DNA of 27,769 nt from an uncultured Oscillospiraceae bacterium. GTDB lineage: Bacteria; Bacillota; Clostridia; Oscillospirales; Oscillospiraceae. Under the pieces are notes generated by a model. It ran no database searches and was not told the DNA's origin. It was given only the letters and a program-made list of their open reading frames with translations. Below are positions 10,800-17,776 of this stretch, piece after piece. Positions within the stretch are counted from its first letter, which is position 1; every line of letters starts with the position of its first letter. The translations under genes and the position numbers were made by a program. Location: positions 1 through 27,769 of the forward strand of contig CAKUPH010000023.1 of assembly GCA_934675115.1 (NCBI GenBank), given 5' to 3'.

Positions 10800-11765
10800 T
10801 CAGAACAGGGCCTTGAAGTCGCTGACAATGCTGTCACAGCTGCCGTTGACTACCATCATAACATAATTTCCGGAAGATACAACCCTGGACTGGCTCTCCC
10901 AGGTATCCATGGCCTCGGGGTACCACGCGCCGCCGGGGCCGTTGCCGTCGCCCACCATGTAGTTGATGCGGGCCTGAAGGATGGCCTTCACCGCCGCCAC
11001 GTCAGCGGCGTCGGACACCTCGATGAGGGCCAGCTCGCCCATGTTCATGGACATCTGGGGGACGTACACAATGCACTGCTTGGTGGAGATACCGGTGAGG
11101 CCGGAGTAGAAGCTGTCCAGCAGGGTGCTGTCCGCCAGCGCGGGGCTGCCCCCGAACTCATACCGGCCAAACAGGTCGCTGGCAAAGGCGGACAGGTCCA
11201 CGCCGGCGGCGGGGGTCTGGGACTCGCTCTCGGCGGGGGCGGCGTCCTCCTTCCAGCGGCAGCGGACGATGCAGCTGGCGGTCAGGCCGCCGTCGGTCTT
11301 GGCGGTGATGACGGTCTTGCCCGGGCCCACGGAGGTCACATTGCCCTTTTCGTCCACCGTGGCGACGCTCTCGTCGTCGCTGGTCCACGTGATGTCAGGG
11401 TGGCCGTCGATGCCGGTGACGGTGGCCTTGAGCTTCAGGACGTATCCGGCGTAGGTGATGGTGGCGTCCTTCATACTCAGAGTCAGGGCCGGGGCTTCCT
11501 CAACGATCTCGGAAGGTTCAGGCTCCGCCGGGGCGTCGGACGTGAAGGGGGACTCCACCACCACGGGCTGGGAGCTTTCAGCGGGTGTCTCAGAGGGTTC
11601 CTCGGGGGTCTCGGAGGGAGTTTCCGGAGTGCCGGTTTCGGCGGGTTCGGACTGGCTGGGCTGGTCGGGCTGACCGGTGCCGCTGCCGCCGGTCTTTCCG
11701 CCGCAGGCGGCCAGCAGGGTCAGGCACAGCGCCAGTGCGGTCAGCTGGGCGATGCTCATTTTCAT
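10800..11765 (-). CDS. DUF4358 lipoprotein with a BIG2-like domain
   Basis: Secreted lipoprotein of unknown function. 321 residues. Signal peptide with lipobox LLAAC (Cys near 21), then a low-complexity Ser/Thr/Pro/Glu linker (about 25-75). Next is an Ig-like BIG2-type domain (about 90-165; hallmarks ITWTSDDESVATVDEKGNV and GKTVITAKTDGG), and a C-terminal DUF4358-type domain (about 190-321) with ARINYMVGDGNGPGGAWYPE. The same C-terminal block recurs in the upstream gene, so the pair are paralogues. The ATG at 11765 follows AAGGAG. Surface or peptidoglycan association is suggested by the BIG2 domain but is inference. Confidence 0.8.
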   Translation of the reverse strand: MKMSIAQLTALALCLTLLAACGGKTGGSGTGQPDQPSQSEPAETGTPETPSETPEEPSETPAESSQPVVVESPFTSDAPAEPEPSEIVEEAPALTLSMKDATITYAGYVLKLKATVTGIDGHPDITWTSDDESVATVDEKGNVTSVGPGKTVITAKTDGGLTASCIVRCRWKEDAAPAESESQTPAAGVDLSAFASDLFGRYEFGGSPALADSTLLDSFYSGLTGISTKQCIVYVPQMSMNMGELALIEVSDAADVAAVKAILQARINYMVGDGNGPGGAWYPEAMDTWESQSRVVSSGNYVMMVVNGSCDSIVSDFKALF

Positions 11766-11813
11766 AGGGATGCTCCTTATCTATCTCTTTTATTCTATAA
11801 GGAATGCCGCTTT

Positions 11814-12317
11814 TTACTTGCTCTCGCCGTAGGAATTGAAGGCGGACACCATGTCATCCTTATTCTCGCCCACGAACAGGCAGACGTAATTGCCCTTCAC
11901 CACGATCTCGGAGTTGTTCTCCCACTCCTCCATGGTCTCGGGATACCACGCGCCGCCGGGGCCGTTGCCGTCGCCCACCATGTAGTCGATGCGGGCCTGA
12001 AAAATGTTCTTCACCGTCTCCGCGTCGTCAGCGTTGGCCACCTCCACCATGGCCACCTCGGCGGCGACGGCGGAGATCATGGCAGCATAGGCCACGGTCT
12101 GCTTCCGCTCAATGGCGGTCAGGCCGGGGTAGGTGTCCTCCAGCATGTCCTCGGGCAGCTCCTCCATGGCGGGGGCGTCGTCGCCCTGATAGAGGGTGTT
12201 GTAAAATTCCTTCAGATCGATGGACTGATCGGCGGAACCGCCGTTATCGGTCTTGCCGCAGGCGGCAAGGGACAGGGCCAGCACGGCGGCCAGCATTACA
12301 GACATCATACGTTTCAT
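11814..12317 (-). CDS. DUF4358 lipoprotein
   Basis: Small lipoprotein of unknown function, 167 residues. Signal peptide MKRMMSVMLAAVLALSLAAC ends in a lipobox cysteine at residue 20; the rest is one DUF4358-type domain ending in ARIDYMVGDGNGPGGAWYPE and a GNYVCLFVGENKDDM strand. It matches the C-terminal domain of the next gene downstream but lacks the linker and BIG2-like domain. The start at 12317 has AAGGAG about 9 nt upstream; an in-frame start at 12362 would add a charged, non-signal-like extension. 48 nt from the next gene, likely the same transcript. It is the last core gene before the island. Confidence 0.82.
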   Translation of the reverse strand: MKRMMSVMLAAVLALSLAACGKTDNGGSADQSIDLKEFYNTLYQGDDAPAMEELPEDMLEDTYPGLTAIERKQTVAYAAMISAVAAEVAMVEVANADDAETVKNIFQARIDYMVGDGNGPGGAWYPETMEEWENNSEIVVKGNYVCLFVGENKDDMVSAFNSYGESK

Positions 12318-12438: not shown

Positions 12439-12453
12439 CCCGGCGTCGAAATT
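12439..12453 (+). repeat. Left 15-bp direct repeat flanking the island
   Basis: CCCGGCGTCGAAATT, identical and in the same orientation as 17413-17427. Could be a target or attachment core. Confidence 0.7.
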
Positions 12454-12463
12454 CGGAAATGTC

Positions 12464-12479
12464 AATAGTAAATGCGAAA
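12464..12479 (+). repeat. Left terminal inverted repeat
   Basis: AATAGTAAATGCGAAA; pairs with the complement of 17387-17402 at 15 of 16 positions. The core AAATGCGAAA also recurs directly at 13563-13572, in the transposase leader, and nearly (AAATGCGATA) at 17342-17351. Confidence 0.6.
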
Positions 12480-12498
12480 AAAATATAAAAAAATATAA

Positions 12499-13548
12499 TC
12501 AGGCTTCCCGCGCCAATTCTTCAAGGCATTCCGCGAACACGATTTCAGAGGTTTTCCAGCCCAATATTTCACGCGGGTAATTGTTTATCCACTCTTCCGT
12601 TTTCTTGACAGTTGCCCGGCTAACCTTGTTGAAGTCCGTTCCTTTCGGGAACTTTCGCCGAATCATTTTGTTTGCACACTCATTTGACCCACGTTCGCAA
12701 CTTGTGTACGGGTGGCAGTAATACATTTTAGTTCGCTTTTCTTTCCGCAGAATAGATTGTTCAAGGCTCTTCACGTCGGAGAACTCCCCGCCGTTGTCTA
12801 CGGTGATTGTCTGGAACACGCGCGGAAACAGCGCCCCGAACCTCCGTTCAATACGGTTCAGGGCGCGGACTGTGCTGATTGCGGTTCGGTCGCGCATTTT
12901 CTCTATAATCTCTTTTCGCGTCAGGCGCTCCGTCATGACCAACAAGGCGCACGAACCCTCTTTGCTCGAATATACGGTGTCCATTTCCCAATGCCCGAAA
13001 GTGATTCGCTGGTTAATCACTTCCGGGCGTTTTTCTATGCTCTCACCCCGCGGGGCGCGTTTCGTCGTCTTTACCCGGTGATAGGGCCGCTTGCGCTTCG
13101 GCTTCTCCGGCAAGTCCTTGTTCGTCAGGTTCAAGAAAACACCCTTTTCAATGTAGCTGTAAAACGTGCTGACGCAAATAGAGGTTTTGAACGTCCGGCC
13201 CTCTAACTCTATGTCGGCAAGGGCCGCGGCGGGTGAACGGTCCTCTTCAATGACCTTGCGTTCCAAATAGTCGGCAAGTTCGCGGTCATTGCCGATTTTC
13301 AACGGTGCGCCTTTTGCCGCGAGGTTTTCGCGGTATCGCTGTTCCGCTCCGTCCGGGTTGTATCGGTCTTCTGTAAGCCATGTTGCGCCGTCCAGCCACT
13401 CCCAACGGGAACGCTTGATTTCTCTGTAAATCGTGCTGACGTGAACGTGAAGTTCCGCCGCAATCTGCTTCGGCGTATCGCCGCGGTTCAAGCCGTATTC
13501 GATTTTTCGCCGATCTGTAAGCTGTAAATGACTGAAACAATGCCCCAT
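12499..13548 (-). CDS. IS30-family transposase
   Basis: DDE transposase, 349 residues. N-terminal helix-turn-helix (about 10-47) with the IS30-type segment LTDRRKIEYGLNRG and STIYREIKRS. The C-terminal integrase core has catalytic Asp near 190 in GHWEMDTVYSS, Asp near 251 in ITVDNGGEFSD, and Glu near 285 in SCERGSNECAN. The 33 residues between the second Asp and the Glu match the IS30 D-33-E signature; RRKFPKGTDF follows, as in IS30 proteins. The frame is intact, so it is probably functional. The ATG at 13548 has GGGAGG 7 nt upstream. Its promoter carries the 18-bp palindrome also found at 15135, and its leader carries a hairpin and an AAATGCGAAA box. Confidence 0.93.
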   Translation of the reverse strand: MGHCFSHLQLTDRRKIEYGLNRGDTPKQIAAELHVHVSTIYREIKRSRWEWLDGATWLTEDRYNPDGAEQRYRENLAAKGAPLKIGNDRELADYLERKVIEEDRSPAAALADIELEGRTFKTSICVSTFYSYIEKGVFLNLTNKDLPEKPKRKRPYHRVKTTKRAPRGESIEKRPEVINQRITFGHWEMDTVYSSKEGSCALLVMTERLTRKEIIEKMRDRTAISTVRALNRIERRFGALFPRVFQTITVDNGGEFSDVKSLEQSILRKEKRTKMYYCHPYTSCERGSNECANKMIRRKFPKGTDFNKVSRATVKKTEEWINNYPREILGWKTSEIVFAECLEELAREA

Positions 13549-13562
13549 GCTATAACCTCCCA

Positions 13563-13602
13563 AAATGCGAAACCCGCCCAAGCTATCAAGCCGGGCGGGT
13601 TT
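13563..13602 (-). promoter_or_regulatory. Leader hairpin and AAATGCGAAA box upstream of transposase
   Basis: 10-bp perfect stem 13570-13579/13593-13602 (AAACCCGCCC with GGGCGGGTTT) in the transposase leader, ending about 11 nt before its ribosome binding site. AAATGCGAAA (13563-13572) overlaps it and repeats the core of the element's terminal inverted repeats. It may limit translation from read-through transcripts or bind transposase. Confidence 0.5.
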
Positions 13603-13634
13603 TGTTCCTCTTTTCAGCGGTTCCCCGCAAAAAG

Positions 13635-13663
13635 ATTATAACAATATTTTTATACTAACGCAA
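13635..13663 (-). promoter_or_regulatory. Transposase promoter with operator over the -35
   Basis: Minus strand -35 TTGCGT (13658-13663), 17-nt spacer, -10 TATAAT (13635-13640). The -35 lies inside the near-palindrome TATACTAACGCAAGTATA (13651-13668). The same arrangement recurs at 15119-15152. Confidence 0.7.
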
Positions 13664-13668
13664 GTATA
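13651..13668. promoter_or_regulatory. 18-bp palindromic operator, site 1
   Basis: TATACTAACGCAAGTATA, identical to 15135-15152 and two central bases away from the perfect palindrome at 15204-15221. It covers the -35 of the transposase promoter, so a bound protein would repress it. Confidence 0.6.
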
Positions 13669-13676
13669 AAAAACTA

Positions 13677-13919
13677 TTACTCATTTTCTGTCAGCCATTC
13701 CATAGATACGCCGAGTATCTTCGCAAGCACCGCAAGTTCATAATCGGTCACAAAGCGGGTCCCGATTTCAATTCTGCTTACGCTGTCCCGCTCCATTGTA
13801 ATTCCTGCAACTTGTAGACGCGCCGCAAGGTCTGTTTGTGTGATATTCAGCCGGGCGCGTGCTTCTTTGACGCGATTTCCGCAAAGGTTCTTTCGTCCCT
13901 TGTAGTCGTATATCTTCAA
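13677..13919 (-). CDS. XRE-family helix-turn-helix regulator
   Basis: Small DNA-binding protein, 80 residues, essentially one Cro/C1-type HTH: NRVKEARARLNITQTDLAAR (about 15-34), then ERDSVSRIEIGTRFVTDYEL and an alpha-helical end LAKILGVSMEWL. It starts at TTG (13919) with AGGAGG 9 nt upstream. The divergent intergenic region carries three copies of TTGTGTTAAAG(G)TC around a plus-strand promoter, so it probably represses itself and the lipoprotein gene. Its stop lies close to the operator of the transposase promoter. Target assignment is inference from position. Confidence 0.88.
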   Translation of the reverse strand: MKIYDYKGRKNLCGNRVKEARARLNITQTDLAARLQVAGITMERDSVSRIEIGTRFVTDYELAVLAKILGVSMEWLTENE

Positions 13920-13935
13920 CCGCCGATTCCTCCTT

Positions 13936-14001
13936 TTGTGTTAAAGGTCTGCATTTTTCTTGACTTTAACACAATAAGCGTTGATAATTGTGTTAAAGGT
14001 C
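13936..14001. promoter_or_regulatory. Triple operator of the XRE regulator
   Basis: Three sites: TTGTGTTAAAGGTC at 13936-13949 and 13988-14001, and its inverted near-copy GACTTTAACACAA at 13962-13974. The last two form an 11-bp perfect inverted repeat (TTTAACACAAT / ATTGTGTTAAA) separated by 11 nt. They overlap the ribosome-binding region of the XRE gene and the plus-strand promoter. Confidence 0.7.
13960..13988 (+). promoter_or_regulatory. Promoter of the island lipoprotein
   Basis: -35 TTGACT (13960-13965), 17-nt spacer, -10 GATAAT (13983-13988), with operator sites lying across the -35/spacer and immediately after the -10. Drives the gene at 14085 with a leader of about 90 nt. Confidence 0.65.
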
Positions 14002-14084
14002 AGAATCCAGAAAAAGCAATGGTTCCGGCCTTTGAAAATAACGCAAGCCGCCCGGACGCTGGGCGGCAGAACGGAGGATTCCAC

Positions 14085-14777
14085 ATGAAAAAGGTTCTAT
14101 CTCTTGTCCTTGCGGCGGCGCTTGCCGCGTCCCTCTCCGCCTGCGGCGGCGTTCTTGTCGATCTGGACACGCCCAAATCGGAGGAACTGACGGCGCAGTA
14201 TGATTTTTACCCCGATGCTATGAACACCATTCGGGCGGATATGAAAATCACTCCCGAACAGGCCGATGAAGTCTTTATCGTTCTGACTTCCTGCGGCCTT
14301 GACGGGAAGATTACAAGCATTTCCGAAAACAATGGCGCGTATACCGTCTATTACGGCGGTTCATCCCTCGACGTTGCACTTTCTGACGGTGCGGTTGAAA
14401 CCGTCTATTCCGGGCGTGATATGCTGTACCCCGAATATCACAAGCACAATGTCTTGATGGACTATGACTTGACCGTAAAGGACGTGAAAACGGGTTCCGG
14501 CGATAAAATCGGTGAATACGCCTATATCCGCATTACGAAAGCACAGCTTCAAGCCATTACGGAAGAAAACTACAAAGAATTCGTTGAAACCGTCGTCAAG
14601 GACAGCGGCTACAACTGGGTTGCAATTCTTTGCGATGACGGCACGGGTATTTGTTTCCCCGGTTCTATGTACTATGTCGGTACATACGGGAAGCAAGATA
14701 CCGACGGTTCTATTCTTGAAGATTACGGCACTATCACGCTGGACGAAAACGGCGGCTATACATACGAACAGTTCTGA
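14085..14777 (+). CDS. Lipoprotein of unknown function (island cargo)
   Basis: 230 residues. Signal peptide MKKVLSLVLAAALAASLSAC with lipobox LSAC (Cys20), so exported and lipid-anchored. The mature part is acidic with alternating beta-like segments (NNGAYTVYYGGSSLDVALSD, YAYIRITKAQLQAI) and two late cysteines (in AILCDDGTGICFPG) that could form a disulfide. I do not recognise the family. GGAGG precedes the ATG by 7 nt. It is the only plus-strand gene of the island, divergent from the XRE gene, whose operators overlap its promoter. A surface exclusion or host-interaction role would be speculation. Confidence 0.8.
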   Translation: MKKVLSLVLAAALAASLSACGGVLVDLDTPKSEELTAQYDFYPDAMNTIRADMKITPEQADEVFIVLTSCGLDGKITSISENNGAYTVYYGGSSLDVALSDGAVETVYSGRDMLYPEYHKHNVLMDYDLTVKDVKTGSGDKIGEYAYIRITKAQLQAITEENYKEFVETVVKDSGYNWVAILCDDGTGICFPGSMYYVGTYGKQDTDGSILEDYGTITLDENGGYTYEQF

Positions 14778-14791
14778 ACAGCAGGAAAGCA

Positions 14792-14820
14792 AAAGCGACG
14801 GGCGCAACGCCCGCCGCTTT
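14792..14820. terminator. Convergent terminator
   Basis: Stem 14792-14803/14809-14820 with one A/C mismatch, loop GCAAC. T-rich tails in both directions (CTTTATGCC on plus, TTGCTTTCC on minus) serve the lipoprotein and the gene ending at 14823. Confidence 0.8.
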
Positions 14821-14822
14821 CT

Positions 14823-15095
14823 TTATGCCTTTTCCTGCTCCGCGTCTGCCGCGGCCTGAACCTCTGCCGCGAACTGCTCCGGCGACAGTCCCAACACCAC
14901 CGCCGCCCGTTCGTCCATCAGCGATTCAATCATATCGTTTATGCTGTCAAACCCGCTTGCCTTTGCCGCTCTCTGATATACAGACTTTTTGCCTTTCTTT
15001 ACATACGGGTAAATCCTGTCATAGTTTTTGCTGTTGTATTTCCGCTTCGCGTCTGTCGCGGCTTGCCCGCGGGGGTTTCCATATTTGCTTGCCAT
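14823..15095 (-). CDS. Ribbon-helix-helix-like small DNA-binding protein
   Basis: 90 residues, begins MASKYGNPRGQAATDAKRKY. The middle reads as one beta strand (YDRIYPYVKKG, about 25-35), a helix (KKSVYQRAAKASGF) and a second helix (SINDMIESLMDERA), the order of an Arc/CopG-type ribbon-helix-helix fold; the tail is an Ala/Glu-rich helix. The ATG at 15095 has AAAGGAG 8 nt upstream; an in-frame start at 15161 would lie before the promoter. Its promoter -35 is inside the 18-bp palindrome shared with the transposase promoter, so autorepression and control of transposition are plausible. The fold is assigned by eye only. Confidence 0.7.
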   Translation of the reverse strand: MASKYGNPRGQAATDAKRKYNSKNYDRIYPYVKKGKKSVYQRAAKASGFDSINDMIESLMDERAAVVLGLSPEQFAAEVQAAADAEQEKA

Positions 15096-15118
15096 TGTCA
15101 CCACTCCTTTACTTGTCC

Positions 15119-15147
15119 ATTTTATCACGCTGTTTATACTAACGCAA
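15119..15147 (-). promoter_or_regulatory. Promoter of the ribbon-helix-helix-like gene
   Basis: Minus strand -35 TTGCGT (15142-15147), 17-nt spacer, -10 TAAAAT (15119-15124). The -35 hexamer and the adjoining TAGTATAAA are identical to the transposase promoter. Confidence 0.65.
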
Positions 15148-15221
15148 GTATAAAAACACACAATCTATCGTTAGTATATTTGTGCATCATTCCAGCTTGT
15201 ATTTATACTAACGTTAGTATA
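15135..15221. promoter_or_regulatory. Cluster of palindromic operators, sites 2-4
   Basis: Site 2 TATACTAACGCAAGTATA at 15135-15152 (identical to site 1). Site 3 degenerate at 15161-15178 (good half CGTTAGTATA, 15169-15178). Site 4 perfect 18-bp palindrome TATACTAACGTTAGTATA at 15204-15221. Together they cover the minus promoter at 15119 and the plus promoter at 15197. Confidence 0.6.
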
Positions 15222-15225
15222 TAAT
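15197..15225 (+). promoter_or_regulatory. Plus-strand promoter with operator in its spacer
   Basis: -35 TTGTAT (15197-15202), 17-nt spacer, -10 TATAAT (15220-15225). The perfect palindrome fills the spacer. Points into a region without a convincing plus-strand gene. Confidence 0.55.
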
Positions 15226-15366
15226 CATAAGCAGAAAGGGAAACCAAAGCCGCCCGGTTGTCGGGGCGTAGAGTTCGACAACAGCCAACCTTACGGGCTG
15301 ACACGAAAAGGGAACCGACACGGCATACAACAACACTTCAACTTCTGGTTTTTTATATGGGGGTAA
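15226..15366 (+). ncRNA. Candidate non-coding transcript or untranslated leader
   Basis: Downstream of the operator-controlled plus promoter (expected start near 15232). Contains a 7-bp stem GTTGTCG (15257-15263) / CGACAAC (15276-15282) and a short AGCC/GGCT stem near 15283-15299, and a T-run at 15350-15355 without a strong hairpin before it. No plus-strand frame has a ribosome binding site and plausible protein. It could be a small RNA, or a transcript antisense to the minus-strand cargo genes. Confidence 0.3.
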
Positions 15367-15483
15367 TCAATATGACGTACTTTTCGTCAGACCGCGGGCG
15401 GTCCCGAACTCCTGCATTGCAAGGGTGCGGGCCGTCTTCGCCGTCAGCTTGACCCCGCCGTGTTGCTGTTCCTTTCGGCTCAT
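15367..15483 (-). CDS. Possible 38-residue coupled peptide
   Basis: Starts MSRKEQQHGGVKLTAKTART and ends GLTKSTSY. Its ATG (15483) overlaps the TGA stop of the preceding gene (15480-15482), the ATGA arrangement of translational coupling. The peptide is basic and of plausible composition. The purine-rich GGAGG lies only 1 nt before the ATG, so initiation would depend on coupling. Function unknown; it may be a remnant. Confidence 0.4.
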   Translation of the reverse strand: MSRKEQQHGGVKLTAKTARTLAMQEFGTARGLTKSTSY

Positions 15484-15704
15484 ACCTCCGCCGCCTTTCC
15501 GCTTTCCTGCGACAGCCACCAAAGCGGATTGTTCCGCTTGTCCTCATACGGGCAAGGGCTACCATCGTCACAACTGACTTTCCCGCACCCGGCACAATAC
15601 TTCCGCTGGAATTCTTCGTCCCACGGCGCTTCAATGACGGGCAGGCCCCGCAAGAAAGCGCCCAGCGTTTCCGGGTTCTTCGTGATTTCTTCAAAATTGT
15701 TCAC
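15480..15704 (-). CDS. Small four-cysteine protein (island cargo)
   Basis: 74 residues from a GTG at 15704, with AAAGGAGG (15712-15719) 7 nt upstream and overlapping the previous stop codon. The sequence runs NNFEEITKNPETLGAFLRGL, then a cluster YCAGCGKVSCDDGSPCPYE with four cysteines suited to binding zinc, and a tail NPLWWLSQESGKAAEV. Such short cysteine-cluster proteins are common in Firmicute mobile elements. No function assigned. Tightly packed between the orphan HTH gene and the 38-residue frame. Confidence 0.65.
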   Translation of the reverse strand: MNNFEEITKNPETLGAFLRGLPVIEAPWDEEFQRKYCAGCGKVSCDDGSPCPYEDKRNNPLWWLSQESGKAAEV

Positions 15705-15717
15705 CGCGAAACCTCCT

Positions 15718-15969
15718 TTACGAATTGACCGCGGATTTGCCGCGGCGTTTGAAGTTTTCTTGTACGCGCTGTTGTGCAAGAACGGGGTTGTATGCTTTCC
15801 GCAGGTTGCGGTCAAGCCCGCCCGTTTCGCCGCGCTTCAACTCCCGGTAGACGGTAGCCGTTGTCACGCCCAGCCCGTCGGCGATGTCCGCCACCCGGTC
15901 GCCGTTCAGGTATCGCGTGGAAATCTCCTTGCGGTCCTGAAAGTCTATATATCTGTACTGCCGCACCAT
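15718..15969 (-). CDS. Orphan IS30-like helix-turn-helix protein
   Basis: 83 residues starting MVRQYRYIDFQDRKEISTRY. It consists of one HTH_38-type domain: YLNGDRVADIADGLGVTTAT then VYRELKRGETGG, followed by AYNPVLAQQRVQENFKRRGK. This matches the layout of the N-terminal DNA-binding domain of IS30 transposases (compare STIYREIKRS in the transposase at 12499), without any catalytic domain. GGGGTGAA precedes the ATG at 15969 closely; a start further upstream (16053) would overlap the previous gene. It may be a regulator derived from a transposase, able to compete for element ends or to control cargo genes. Confidence 0.7.
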   Translation of the reverse strand: MVRQYRYIDFQDRKEISTRYLNGDRVADIADGLGVTTATVYRELKRGETGGLDRNLRKAYNPVLAQQRVQENFKRRGKSAVNS

Positions 15970-15998
15970 TTCACCCCGTTTCTTTTCACCGTTGCGGC

Positions 15999-16412
15999 TT
16001 ATTCTTCGCCTTTTGCTTTTTCGACACGCGCTTTCAGCGACACATACCAGCAATAGGCGCTTGCGACGTGCGTAATAATCCGCACTAAATCCGGCTTTGT
16101 TGCCGATTTTGTCAGCTTTTCGGCAATTCTGTCCGCCGCCATGCTGTCGAAAAATGCGCCGTCAATCAGCGAAAGAACCGCCGCCGTTTGGAAGCTGTCT
16201 GAAATCGGCGTGTAGTAACCGTCCAGCCTTTCCCACATTTCCGCAAAGAAAACAAGTTCGTTTGGTAGTTCTTCATCGTCGCCATAGTCGGCGTGTTCGT
16301 CAGGATAGCAATATTCGCTTATGAAGTTCCTGATTGCTTCAAGCGTCAGTTCTCCGCGCCCGCCGTCGATGTCCTCCCACGAAAGCGCTTCCGGCCTAAA
16401 AATACAGCCCAT
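15999..16412 (-). CDS. Acidic protein of unknown function (island cargo)
   Basis: 137 residues, MGCIFRPEALSWEDIDGGRG at the start. Strongly acidic centre (YPDEHADYGDDEELPNE), mostly helical prediction by eye, and a basic C-terminal stretch (SLKARVEKAKGEE). No signal peptide or membrane segment and no family recognised. An AAGG-type site precedes the ATG. Second gene of the minus-strand cargo run, separated from the first by a hairpin at 16430-16459. The acidity is reminiscent of DNA-mimic or antirestriction proteins, but nothing specific supports that. Confidence 0.65.
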   Translation of the reverse strand: MGCIFRPEALSWEDIDGGRGELTLEAIRNFISEYCYPDEHADYGDDEELPNELVFFAEMWERLDGYYTPISDSFQTAAVLSLIDGAFFDSMAADRIAEKLTKSATKPDLVRIITHVASAYCWYVSLKARVEKAKGEE

Positions 16413-16429
16413 GCCTTACCACCTTTCCG

Positions 16430-16459
16430 GGAGGGGCGGCAGGCTTTCGCCGCCCCTCC
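16430..16459. terminator. Intercistronic hairpin in cargo run
   Basis: 11-bp perfect stem 16430-16440/16449-16459 with an 8-nt loop. The T-run (16462-16467) lies on the plus-strand side only, where no plus-strand gene precedes it. On the minus strand it would be an mRNA-stabilising or weakly attenuating hairpin between two cargo genes. Confidence 0.5.
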
Positions 16460-16465
16460 GCTTTT

Positions 16466-17296
16466 TTATTCGTAGACGGGATAGAGGGAAGCATTTTTCA
16501 TCAACCAGCACCGCCCGGCACAGTTAAATCGAATGAAATTCCAATCGGTCGCGTCGTAGTACGGGGTTCCGATGATGCGGACCCGGCTAACCTCGAACCC
16601 GAATTCTTCGCAAACTGCGACGCGGGCTTCCGCTTCCGTGATTTCCTCTGAGCAGTTATTGACCGCCCATTTCTGGTGAACGGGCGCGTCTTTACCCGTT
16701 CCGATCTGATATGCGATGATTGCTTCCGGCTTTCTCAGACACCATGCGTAATACGCATAGTCCATCAGCGCACCCGCAGTCAGCCGCCCGGCCTTGATGT
16801 GTTCCGAAATGACCCGGTAAACCTCCTGCAAGGTGTCCAGCTTGAGGCCCCTGCATTCCGCTTCTGCCGTGAACTCTTCCAGCGTCAGGGCGATTCCGTG
16901 GTTCACTTTCCATTTGCGGTCATACCCGGCTTTCAAGTCGGCTTTCGTTGCGAACATATAGCCGCGGTCAAGGACGAACTTTTCAAAGTCGGTCAGCTTC
17001 GACGCATCGGCGTTCGCTCTGATTCTCTCCGCCAGCAAATCGCCGTAGCCCGGCCCCGCCTTTTTGTCCGTTTCGGTGGCCCGCTCGTTTTCGTCGTAAA
17101 TCCGGCTTTCGGAATGCTTGTCGCTCCAAAACTCGACGCGGCCTTTGTCGTTCACCTCATAGAACGTGCCGTTCTCTTCGGTGGAATAGGTCTTGTGAAT
17201 CACGTTGTTTTCCATCGTGGATTTCTCGACGTAGTGAACCCCGCCGATGATTTCGGCTTTCGCGGCTTCGTACTCTTCAAAAGAAACGTGCTTCAT
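16466..17296 (-). CDS. Protein of unknown function heading the cargo run
   Basis: 276 residues, starts MKHVSFEEYEAAKAEIIGGV. Soluble, no signal peptide or transmembrane segment. Features: a Tyr/Glu-rich N-terminal half (TYSTEENGTFYEVNDKGRVE), a helical middle (LTDFEKFVLDRGYMFATKAD, EEFTAEAECRGLKLDTLQEV), and a C-terminal part with several cysteines and aromatic residues (YYAWCLRKPE, FNCAGRCWLMKNASLYPVYE). I do not recognise a family. AAGGAGG lies 8 nt before the ATG. It is the first gene after the right end of the island; no clear promoter was found in the 90 nt between the right inverted repeat and its start. Confidence 0.7.
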   Translation of the reverse strand: MKHVSFEEYEAAKAEIIGGVHYVEKSTMENNVIHKTYSTEENGTFYEVNDKGRVEFWSDKHSESRIYDENERATETDKKAGPGYGDLLAERIRANADASKLTDFEKFVLDRGYMFATKADLKAGYDRKWKVNHGIALTLEEFTAEAECRGLKLDTLQEVYRVISEHIKAGRLTAGALMDYAYYAWCLRKPEAIIAYQIGTGKDAPVHQKWAVNNCSEEITEAEARVAVCEEFGFEVSRVRIIGTPYYDATDWNFIRFNCAGRCWLMKNASLYPVYE

Positions 17297-17340
17297 TTTC
17301 GCGTCCTCCTTGTGCTTTTGGGCTTTTTATGGTAAAAAAA

Positions 17341-17397
17341 TAAATGCGATAGAACGCGTACCCGTCATTCGACGTGGTATTTGTTCTTTCGCATTTA
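17341..17397. repeat. Subterminal inverted repeat at the right end
   Basis: TAAATGCGATAGAAC (17341-17355) pairs with GTTCTTTCGCATTTA (17383-17397) at 14 of 15 positions around a 27-nt spacer. The outer arm is the core of the terminal inverted repeat, so the right end carries two oppositely oriented copies of the motif, as expected for protein-binding sites. Confidence 0.55.
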
Positions 17398-17402
17398 ATA
17401 TT
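17387..17402 (-). repeat. Right terminal inverted repeat
   Basis: Complement reads AATATTAAATGCGAAA, matching 12464-12479 at 15 of 16 positions. It lies 10 nt inside the right direct repeat, the same distance as on the left. Confidence 0.6.
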
Positions 17403-17412
17403 ACAAGCCGCC

Positions 17413-17427
17413 CCCGGCGTCGAAATT
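17413..17427 (+). repeat. Right 15-bp direct repeat flanking the island
   Basis: CCCGGCGTCGAAATT, identical to 12439-12453; it ends 11 nt before the secG -35 box. Confidence 0.7.
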
Positions 17428-17438
17428 TCAAAAATCCC

Positions 17439-17467
17439 TTGCAATCCCCGCGGCGATGTGCTATGAT
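17439..17467 (+). promoter_or_regulatory. secG promoter
   Basis: -35 TTGCAA (17439-17444), 17-nt spacer, -10 TATGAT (17462-17467). Leader of about 63 nt to secG. The right edge of the island is immediately upstream. Confidence 0.7.
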
Positions 17468-17536: not shown

Positions 17537-17776
17537 ATGTCCGTTCCTCAGCTGATCCTGTCTATCATTTACGTCATTCTGGCTGTTTTCCTGGTGGTGG
17601 TGGTCACCATGCAGTCCGGCAAGAGCTCCGGCCTGTCCGGCGCCATCGGCGGCGGCTCCGACACCTTCCTTGCCAAGAACAAGGCCAAGAGCCTGGACGG
17701 CCGTCTGGCCAAGATGACCAAGTGGGTCGCCATTGTCTTTATGGTTCTCACTCTGGTGCTGTGCTTCGTGATGTAA
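17537..17776 (+). CDS. secG: Preprotein translocase subunit SecG
   Basis: Small subunit of the SecYEG channel that assists protein export through the plasma membrane. 79 residues with two membrane helices (about 5-24, LILSIIYVILAVFLVVVVTM, and about 59-78, WVAIVFMVLTLVLCFVM). They are joined by the conserved cytoplasmic loop QSGKSSGLSGAIGGGSDTFL. The length and Gly/Ser-rich loop are diagnostic. AAAGGATGG precedes the ATG by 7 nt. Monocistronic, with its own promoter and terminator; the island inserted just upstream without disrupting either. Confidence 0.96.
   Translation: MSVPQLILSIIYVILAVFLVVVVTMQSGKSSGLSGAIGGGSDTFLAKNKAKSLDGRLAKMTKWVAIVFMVLTLVLCFVM

Follow-up and report, generated by a model that had tools for sequence, protein, structure and literature searches.

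A 4,959-bp element beside secG in an Oscillospiraceae genome is probably a deleted prophage with an IS30-type transposase as its integration enzyme

Introduction

Why does an IS30-family transposase lie inside a multi-gene element flanked by perfect 15-bp repeats? This question is raised by a 27,769-nucleotide contig of an uncultured Oscillospiraceae bacterium (CAKUPH010000023.1, GenBank assembly GCA_934675115.1), the whole of which we call the window. Members of the IS30 family are simple insertion sequences of about 1-1.2 kb that carry a transposase only. Unlike these, the window element measures 4,959 bp between its two repeats, and eight of its reading frames were taken as genes. We find that it is very probably an internally deleted prophage resembling the Faecalibacterium phage FP_Lagaffe (hereafter Lagaffe), with its IS30-type DDE transposase as the integration enzyme. 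The parts of this reading that sequence comparison displays are the termini, the 15-bp duplication, the phage origin of both halves, the deletion junction, a module shared with related phages and a position upstream of a host promoter.

Ends of the element and its transposase

The direct repeat CCCGGCGTCGAAATT occurs twice only in the window, in identical copies at 12439-12453 and 17413-17427. Ten nucleotides inward of each copy lies an inverted repeat, AATAGTAAATGCGAAA at 12464-12479 on the forward strand and AATATTAAATGCGAAA at 17387-17402 on the reverse strand, with 15/16 identical positions. The core of this end motif, AAATGCGAAA, has three copies in the window against 0.07 expected from shuffles, the third (13563-13572) directly upstream of the transposase start. 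The proximal end carries an outward-facing TTGACA (12460-12465) and TTTCGCATTTA, and TAATAT (17398-17403) in the distal end would serve as the -10 box of a promoter at a circle junction. The GC content of the interior is 0.49-0.55, against mostly 0.58-0.70 outside. The features of the two borders, and the transposase, are as follows.

12439..12453, unstranded: target-site duplication, transposase-side copy; exact copy of 17413-17427, with the same geometry in other elements
12454..12479, reverse strand: transposase-side (proximal) end; relatives have the conserved end GCATTTACTMTTGACA followed by six nucleotides
12499..13548, reverse strand: IS30-type DDE transposase, taken to act as a phage integrase (NF033563; phrog_4646; Lagaffe integrase)
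17387..17412, reverse strand: distal end; the alignment to viral contig L155 begins exactly at this terminus
17413..17427, unstranded: target-site duplication, secG-side copy; exact copy of 12439-12453

The transposase matches the NCBIfam model NF033563 (IS30) with 222 bits at a cut-off of 80 and phrog_4646, a PHROG classed under integration, at E 2e-130, and it is 55% identical to the Lagaffe integrase; we take it for the integrase of a clade of gut-Firmicutes phages with Lagaffe among the relatives. We place its start at the ATG at 13548; the longest frame runs from 13581. Its D, D and E residues are invariant in all 79 of 81 related proteins (window included) that are long enough to align, a check made by alignment because a residue-pattern test had missed 24 of the 81.

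An earlier description from the DNA letters and reading frames only, which we call the sequence-only reading, had pointed out the 15-bp repeats with 15/16 inverted repeats 10 nt inside them, the AT-richer interior and a transposase stop close to the left inverted repeat. All three were borne out, the stop lying at 12499, 19 nt from the inner edge of the repeat. Its view of the locus as a mobile element with an IS30-type transposase, recognisable ends and repeats made by insertion also stands. The check it had suggested, a search for other elements sharing the end geometry, was positive in relatives whose 15-mers differ.

Two phage contexts and a probable internal deletion

We next consider where the interior comes from. 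The viral contig L155 (L and G numbers are our own labels) matches the element from its exact distal terminus inward over 1,933 bp at 97.9%, and L209 matches 598 bp at 97.5%, ending at about 15,370. From there on, a prophage of genome G003 (contig L181) matches in two colinear blocks, at 77% over 407 positions and at 70% over 1,586 positions. This prophage is about 48 kb long and encodes an endolysin, a Hoc-like protein and a reverse transcriptase. The L209 and G003 matches thus switch at a single point, where they share 4 bp (TCAT).

15362..15378, unstranded: internal deletion junction, with the L209 match on one side, the G003 (L181) match on the other and the overlap TCAT

Because two phage contexts meet at one 4-bp overlap, we read the switch as one internal deletion; a single deletion within a G003-like phage would be the simplest reading, and we infer from G003 how much phage DNA was lost. 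In the G003 prophage itself, the reverse transcriptase lies beside the Hoc-like decoration protein (L181 951-2165), possibly as a diversity-generating retroelement like those of Lagaffe and Mushu.

The remaining features of the interior are these.

13563..13604, reverse strand: leader, a hairpin (fold z -2.5) and then the third end-motif copy (TTTCGCATTT), directly before the transposase ribosome-binding site
13677..13919, reverse strand: XRE-type repressor, 80 aa (Pfam HTH_3; tblastn)
14085..14777, forward strand: lipoprotein-like gene, 230 aa, function unknown; lipobox judged by eye; also in L001 and L024
14823..15095, reverse strand: 90-aa phage gene, function unknown (phrog_13890, E 4e-8)
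15133..15224, unstranded: operator-like palindromes TTTATACTAACGNNAGTATA, with a further copy at 13648-13670
15480..15704, reverse strand: putative zinc-finger early gene, 74 aa (97% to L155/L209)
15718..15969, reverse strand: helix-turn-helix (HTH) protein, 83 aa, paralogue of the transposase DNA-binding domain (phrog_11420, E 2e-35)
15999..16412, reverse strand: unknown gene, 137 aa (98% to phage contig L155)
16466..17296, reverse strand: unknown gene, 276 aa (286 database relatives at E 0.001)

The XRE repressor, 90-aa, lipoprotein, HTH and zinc-finger genes are shared with related phages and prophages, and the repressor stands upstream of the transposase in many relatives too. In Lagaffe, nd12 and viral contigs the order is transposase, attachment site (att), HTH gene, and relatives of the 83-aa HTH gene adjoin att in related phages. 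The window has the Lagaffe-type layout, in which the transposase and the HTH paralogue flank att and the repressor lies upstream of the transposase; here two further genes stand between the HTH gene and the distal end. Among the eight proteins of the element that were scanned there was no tyrosine or serine recombinase and no virion, packaging or conjugation gene, and PADLOC gave generic HTH matches and nothing else. With its transposase and both ends intact, the remnant could still move alone, but it lacks virion genes.

Several features suggest regulation. The 83-aa HTH protein is 34% identical over 76 residues to the DNA-binding domain of the window transposase and, by analogy, may compete with the transposase for the element ends; the Mu repressor competes with MuA for ends in this way. 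The hairpin and end-motif copy at 13563-13604 possibly limit read-through and allow the transposase to control itself. Three palindromes of the form TTTATACTAACG..AGTATA (13648-13670, 15133-15156 and 15202-15224) lie ahead of the repressor and the 90-aa gene and resemble operators at which the XRE repressor would act. One half of the palindrome, CTATCGTTAGTATA, is found again in L155. Outside the element, two adjoining DUF4358 lipoprotein genes (10800-12317) are likely a tandem duplication.

The 15-bp repeat is a target duplication in related elements

If the repeats arose by insertion, related elements should carry repeats of their own. We compared the window with the best 80 of 135 genome contigs, giving 81 loci, most with at most 10 kb upstream of the transposase, where longer elements cannot be judged. 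The transposase-side end, GCATTTACTMTTGACA plus 6 nt after which the sequences diverge, was recognised in 58 of the 81 (window included) and not in the other 23; two loci outside these 23, L012 and L065, gave unrelated 12-nt repeats. At seven loci (the window, L022, L030, L036, L039, L044 and L057) exact repeats of 15-19 bp abut both ends, and the second copy lies directly before the other end, 13 nt upstream of ATTAAATG or a variant of it. The raw repeat is 15 nt in five of these, 17 in L030 and 19 in L044, where it is of low complexity; the excess over 15 nt in these two fits chance.

Longer elements were reached through whole genomes, in which we looked for a transposase and a same-strand gene like the 83-aa HTH gene 10-49 kb apart. 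Picked by gene position alone, nine of ten such prophage pairs have a 14-16-bp repeat abutting both ends (two in G002 and one each in G003, G005, G006, G010, G012, G015 and G016); the tenth, in G014, lacks one end at a contig edge. In a further four pairs, whose ends lie on separate contigs, both ends have the 15-mer that the distal one predicts; three of these pairs are within the same genome and one, L196/L019, is presumably so. In total, a duplication of about 15 bp (raw 14-19) lies at the same termini in 20 of 21 pairs, in elements from 3.85 to about 50 kb long. The 15-mers are all different and are therefore host DNA, and since the geometry of repeat, 10 nt and inverted repeat recurs in insertions with different 15-mers, it is not chance.

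An empty site can be read in G005 (Sporofaciens). When its flanks are joined with one copy of the repeat, the frame stays open over all 471 codons tested, and an internal repeat of the encoded protein aligns without gaps across the join (80/124 identical); by this alignment, the joined flanks are a reading of the empty site. Open frames over joined flanks were listed at 9 of 16 sites, of which G005 alone was used. The frame in G015 was set aside as it runs into a sigma-factor-like gene starting after the join, and the seven others look like chance frames. From these comparisons we conclude that the element's 15 bp is a target duplication.

Insertion upstream of host promoters

The host side of the insertions also has a common feature. 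The first clue was a TGTCAA at a fixed distance on the distal-side host flank, a -35 box when read on the opposite strand. The promoter found there in the window is that of secG:

17439..17467, forward strand: host secG promoter TTGCAA-17-TATGAT, 11 nt from the duplication
17537-17776: secG, the host gene behind the promoter

Flanks were scored against the -35 and -10 consensus hexamers, and a site counted at an offset of 10-12 nt, a spacer of 16-18 and a score of at least 9 of 12. Over the first 17 sites, which include L155 with one end only, the promoter scores add up to 160, compared with 110 in shuffles (maximum 123 of 500). At least 9 of 12 is reached at 13 of these 17 discovery sites, 8 of 10 new ones and 9 of 12 from a later family search, where 11 of 12 score 8 or more. 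On the same flanks the rate per other offset is 0.43%, 0.31% and 0.09% for the three sets. Because the threshold was set after the first 17 sites and ten more (offsets and spacers were fixed earlier), a joint test of rule and threshold is given by the last 12 sites alone. In a group of 15 further loci, nine had no distal motif and L195 repeats G016; five more distal ends were picked by hand (L210, L211, L214, L215 and L217), the other non-circle matches there being chance motifs or transposase-side ends read backwards. In the last set of 28 loci, two repeat old sites and 14 have no distal motif within 1,500 nt.

Overall, 30 of 39 sites exceed the threshold, placing the insertion 10-12 nt upstream of a sigma-70-type promoter. 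Of 53 proximal flanks, six score, five of them at offset 11, and three or four of these six proximal ends resemble a distal end. Insertion is therefore biased in orientation. Judged from these flanks, the relatives share the habit of inserting at a set distance ahead of a host gene's promoter.

End-to-end junctions and a proposed mechanism

In 12 loci the two ends are joined directly: Lagaffe, nd12, another nine viral loci and, in G010, an odd stretch of assembly. (Two more apparent junctions, L219 and L237, are outside the scored set; L140 + 1122 was falsely flagged as a circle.) Across the end-to-end junctions, TTGAC[AT] and ATTAAATG or its variant are 20 or 21 nt apart, which corresponds to a junction spacer of 2 nt, with the terminus one base nearer where an extra base precedes TTGAC, as in G015. 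The G010 spacer, AA, is identical to the two host bases adjoining the distal end, a match that chance would give in one case of 16. In 12 of 12 junctions a -10-like hexamer, agreeing at 4 to 6 of 6 positions, is best spaced at 17 nt from TTGAC[AT], and junctions modelled for 16 integrated elements give a mean -10 match of 4.6/6 against 3.2 in shuffles (maximum 4.0 of 2,000). These data are consistent with free phage genomes whose ends meet with about 2 bp between them, like those of IS30 circles, and so form a -35/-10 promoter; transposase binding may be another reason why the end sequence is conserved. No circle of the window element itself was seen. In the G010 assembly (L135 1290-1640), a host-phage junction lies beside an end-to-end junction across a 10-N gap, which suggests that free circles coexisted with the prophage. 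Fusion promoters at circle junctions are known for insertion sequences (PMC7780238).

Based on these data, we propose that the transposase would circularise the element, leaving about 2 bp between the joined ends in the manner of IS30, and that the junction would act as a promoter reading into the early genes. The circle would then be pasted into the host by 15-bp staggered joining at about -47 to -61 of a sigma-70 promoter, leaving the distal end facing that promoter. In its widest form, to which we give somewhat less than even credence, tailed and filamentous gut phages would share an IS30-type module that promoter-bound host RNA polymerase directs to a harmless position some 55 bp ahead of transcription starts, the place also reached by the unrelated TnGBS and ISLre2 enzymes, and circularisation would be the switch, a junction promoter (TTGACA-17-TATAAT-like) firing the early genes only in the circle.

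Alternative explanations

The sequence-only reading had offered two accounts that fared less well. It saw an IS30-derived transposon that had captured regulatory and unknown genes, which agrees with the AT-richer interior, the inverted repeats that bound it and the IS30-family transposase beside one of them. However, the same transposase and its neighbours form the integrase module of tailed phages, and the genes of the distal half occur nearly base for base in viral contigs; captured cargo is thus very unlikely, and the element instead looks like the remains of a phage whose integrase is the transposase. Its other account, a site-specific island that a trans-acting recombinase would move by way of the 15-bp core, fits a perfect direct repeat with inverted arms inside, which resembles an att site. 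Yet the 15-mer is host sequence that differs in every insertion, so that no trans recombinase is needed, and the eight proteins scanned include none of the tyrosine or serine type; we consider this the least credible of the accounts. A stronger rival, although still improbable, takes the element for a phage satellite or compact transposon, small and stable, which keeps its integrase, repressor and a few genes and is transferred by a helper phage. The compact elements L030 (7.0 kb) and L039 (3.85 kb) speak for it, as they share several genes with the window element, lie in different genomes with different 15-mers and show no virion gene in the few of their proteins scanned; L022, compared alongside, has kept a terminase-like gene. 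On the other side, the flanks of 15,370 run into two phage contexts with a 4-bp overlap, as a single deletion predicts, and no second copy of the exact gene set was present among the loci fetched.

The promoter association has a rival of its own, rather unlikely, in which promoters as such do not matter: insertion would favour AT-rich intergenic DNA, or a TTGACA-like motif resembling the element end, and lie near promoters as a side effect. The proximal end does carry TTGACA, and the G005 insertion lies in a coding region with TTGACG and a weak -10. Against a side effect, most sites have both a -35 and a -10, about 17 apart and at a fixed distance, and other offsets of the same flanks show no enrichment of promoters.

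A number of observations weigh against the deleted prophage and its promoter-directed insertion. No complete close parent phage was found, part-matches only, in searches with three window proteins against viral contigs, with the HTH protein and with the element DNA against phage records, the last giving six records with none covering 80%. The lipoprotein segment has no match in the G003 prophage, which has a different gene there. No base-exact empty site of the window insertion was found; the closest secG among 400 genomes of G013's family and 64 of G289's genus is 91% identical. Of 30 of these genomes searched with two lipoproteins, only G106 has a strong match beside secG, and there the element is absent, a putative uridine-kinase-like gene lies between secG and the lipoprotein gene, and the region is too diverged to align. 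Of the 20 repeat pairs, eleven came to light by way of their repeats; only the ten prophage pairs were picked blind to them. Nine of the 39 sites miss the distal-side promoter threshold: G016 and L203 pass it on the other side, L022, L044, L215, L242, L248 and L260 score 7-8 distally, and G002C4 scores 4 distally and 8 on the other side; L039 passes on both sides. The Lagaffe junction spacer may be 1 or 2 nt, and we infer the movement of the element from sequence.

Comparison with known systems

Parts of this picture are already in print, namely the IS30 integrase and direct repeats of Lagaffe and the promoter-upstream insertion of Mutator-like elements. The Lagaffe paper (Cornuault et al. 2018, PMC5883640) describes an IS30 integrase and notes the direct repeats at the prophage ends as surprising; the portions of its text consulted give no repeat length, promoter rule or circle-junction promoter. 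The window element is like Lagaffe in its transposase used as integrase, its HTH gene across att and its direct repeats, and differs in being a remnant, whereas Lagaffe is an active 48-kb virion-forming phage. Our findings would account for the published puzzle of direct repeats around an IS30-integrase prophage and give a rule for the exact borders of these prophages and remnants.

They also bear on annotation, since IS30 transposases in such phages would be integrases and not stray insertion sequences. For instance, a 2026 paper on phage FP01 interprets orf43, the IS30 transposase gene, as an insertion sequence carried by a lytic phage (PMC13432834); orf43 and orf46 (84-aa HTH) look like this integration module. 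A large survey of inoviruses puts transposases together under integration or selfish elements (PMC6813254), direct repeats are reported to flank Enterocloster inoviruses (PMC10061712), and the Spiroplasma vespertilioviruses are filamentous phages with IS30-type transposases (PMC6668415). The bajarodino viruses, also filamentous phages, likewise have a transposase of this family. Among our loci, L036 encodes Rep_trans and a Zot-type ATPase, L044 a Rep protein and L057 a Rep_1 protein; L036 and L044 look like filamentous or small rolling-circle phages with duplications of about 15 bp, and such phages seem to share the IS30 module. The HTH marker was present in 5 of 391 Clostridia genomes and 25 of 400 genomes of G013's family (E 1e-12). 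In the parts consulted of the open-access literature, which leaves aside subscription papers and ISfinder, neither a 15-bp duplication nor promoter targeting is reported for IS30-type phages.

Among insertion sequences, IS30 has circle ends 2 bp apart and a 2-bp target duplication (PMC9333248). With IS30 and ISApl1 (PMC10916398) the window clade has in common the transposase family, the DDE residues and, as it appears from free relatives, the 2-bp circle spacing and the junction-promoter principle (PMC7780238); IS30 and ISApl1 are, however, simple insertion sequences with 2-bp duplications, whereas the clade makes 15-bp duplications and reaches phage size. The Mutator-like elements TnGBS, ISLre2 and ISKra4 insert at a distance of 15-17 bp upstream of sigma-A promoters; one orientation prevails, and those with symmetric ends insert both ways (Guerillot et al. 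2014, PMC3942029). They resemble the window clade in using a DDE enzyme instead of an integrase and in keeping a fixed distance upstream of promoters, but have another transposase family and are conjugative elements or insertion sequences, not phages, and the clade lies 11 nt from the promoter with a 15-bp duplication. Presuming a duplication length for TnGBS, we estimate that the middle of the target lies about 18-20 bp from the -35 in both. It is plausible, by analogy, that the two groups follow a common targeting signal, such as promoter-bound RNA polymerase. A second, unrelated DDE family with promoter-upstream targeting would allow comparisons that test which signal is recognised: RNA polymerase, the hexamers or bent DNA.

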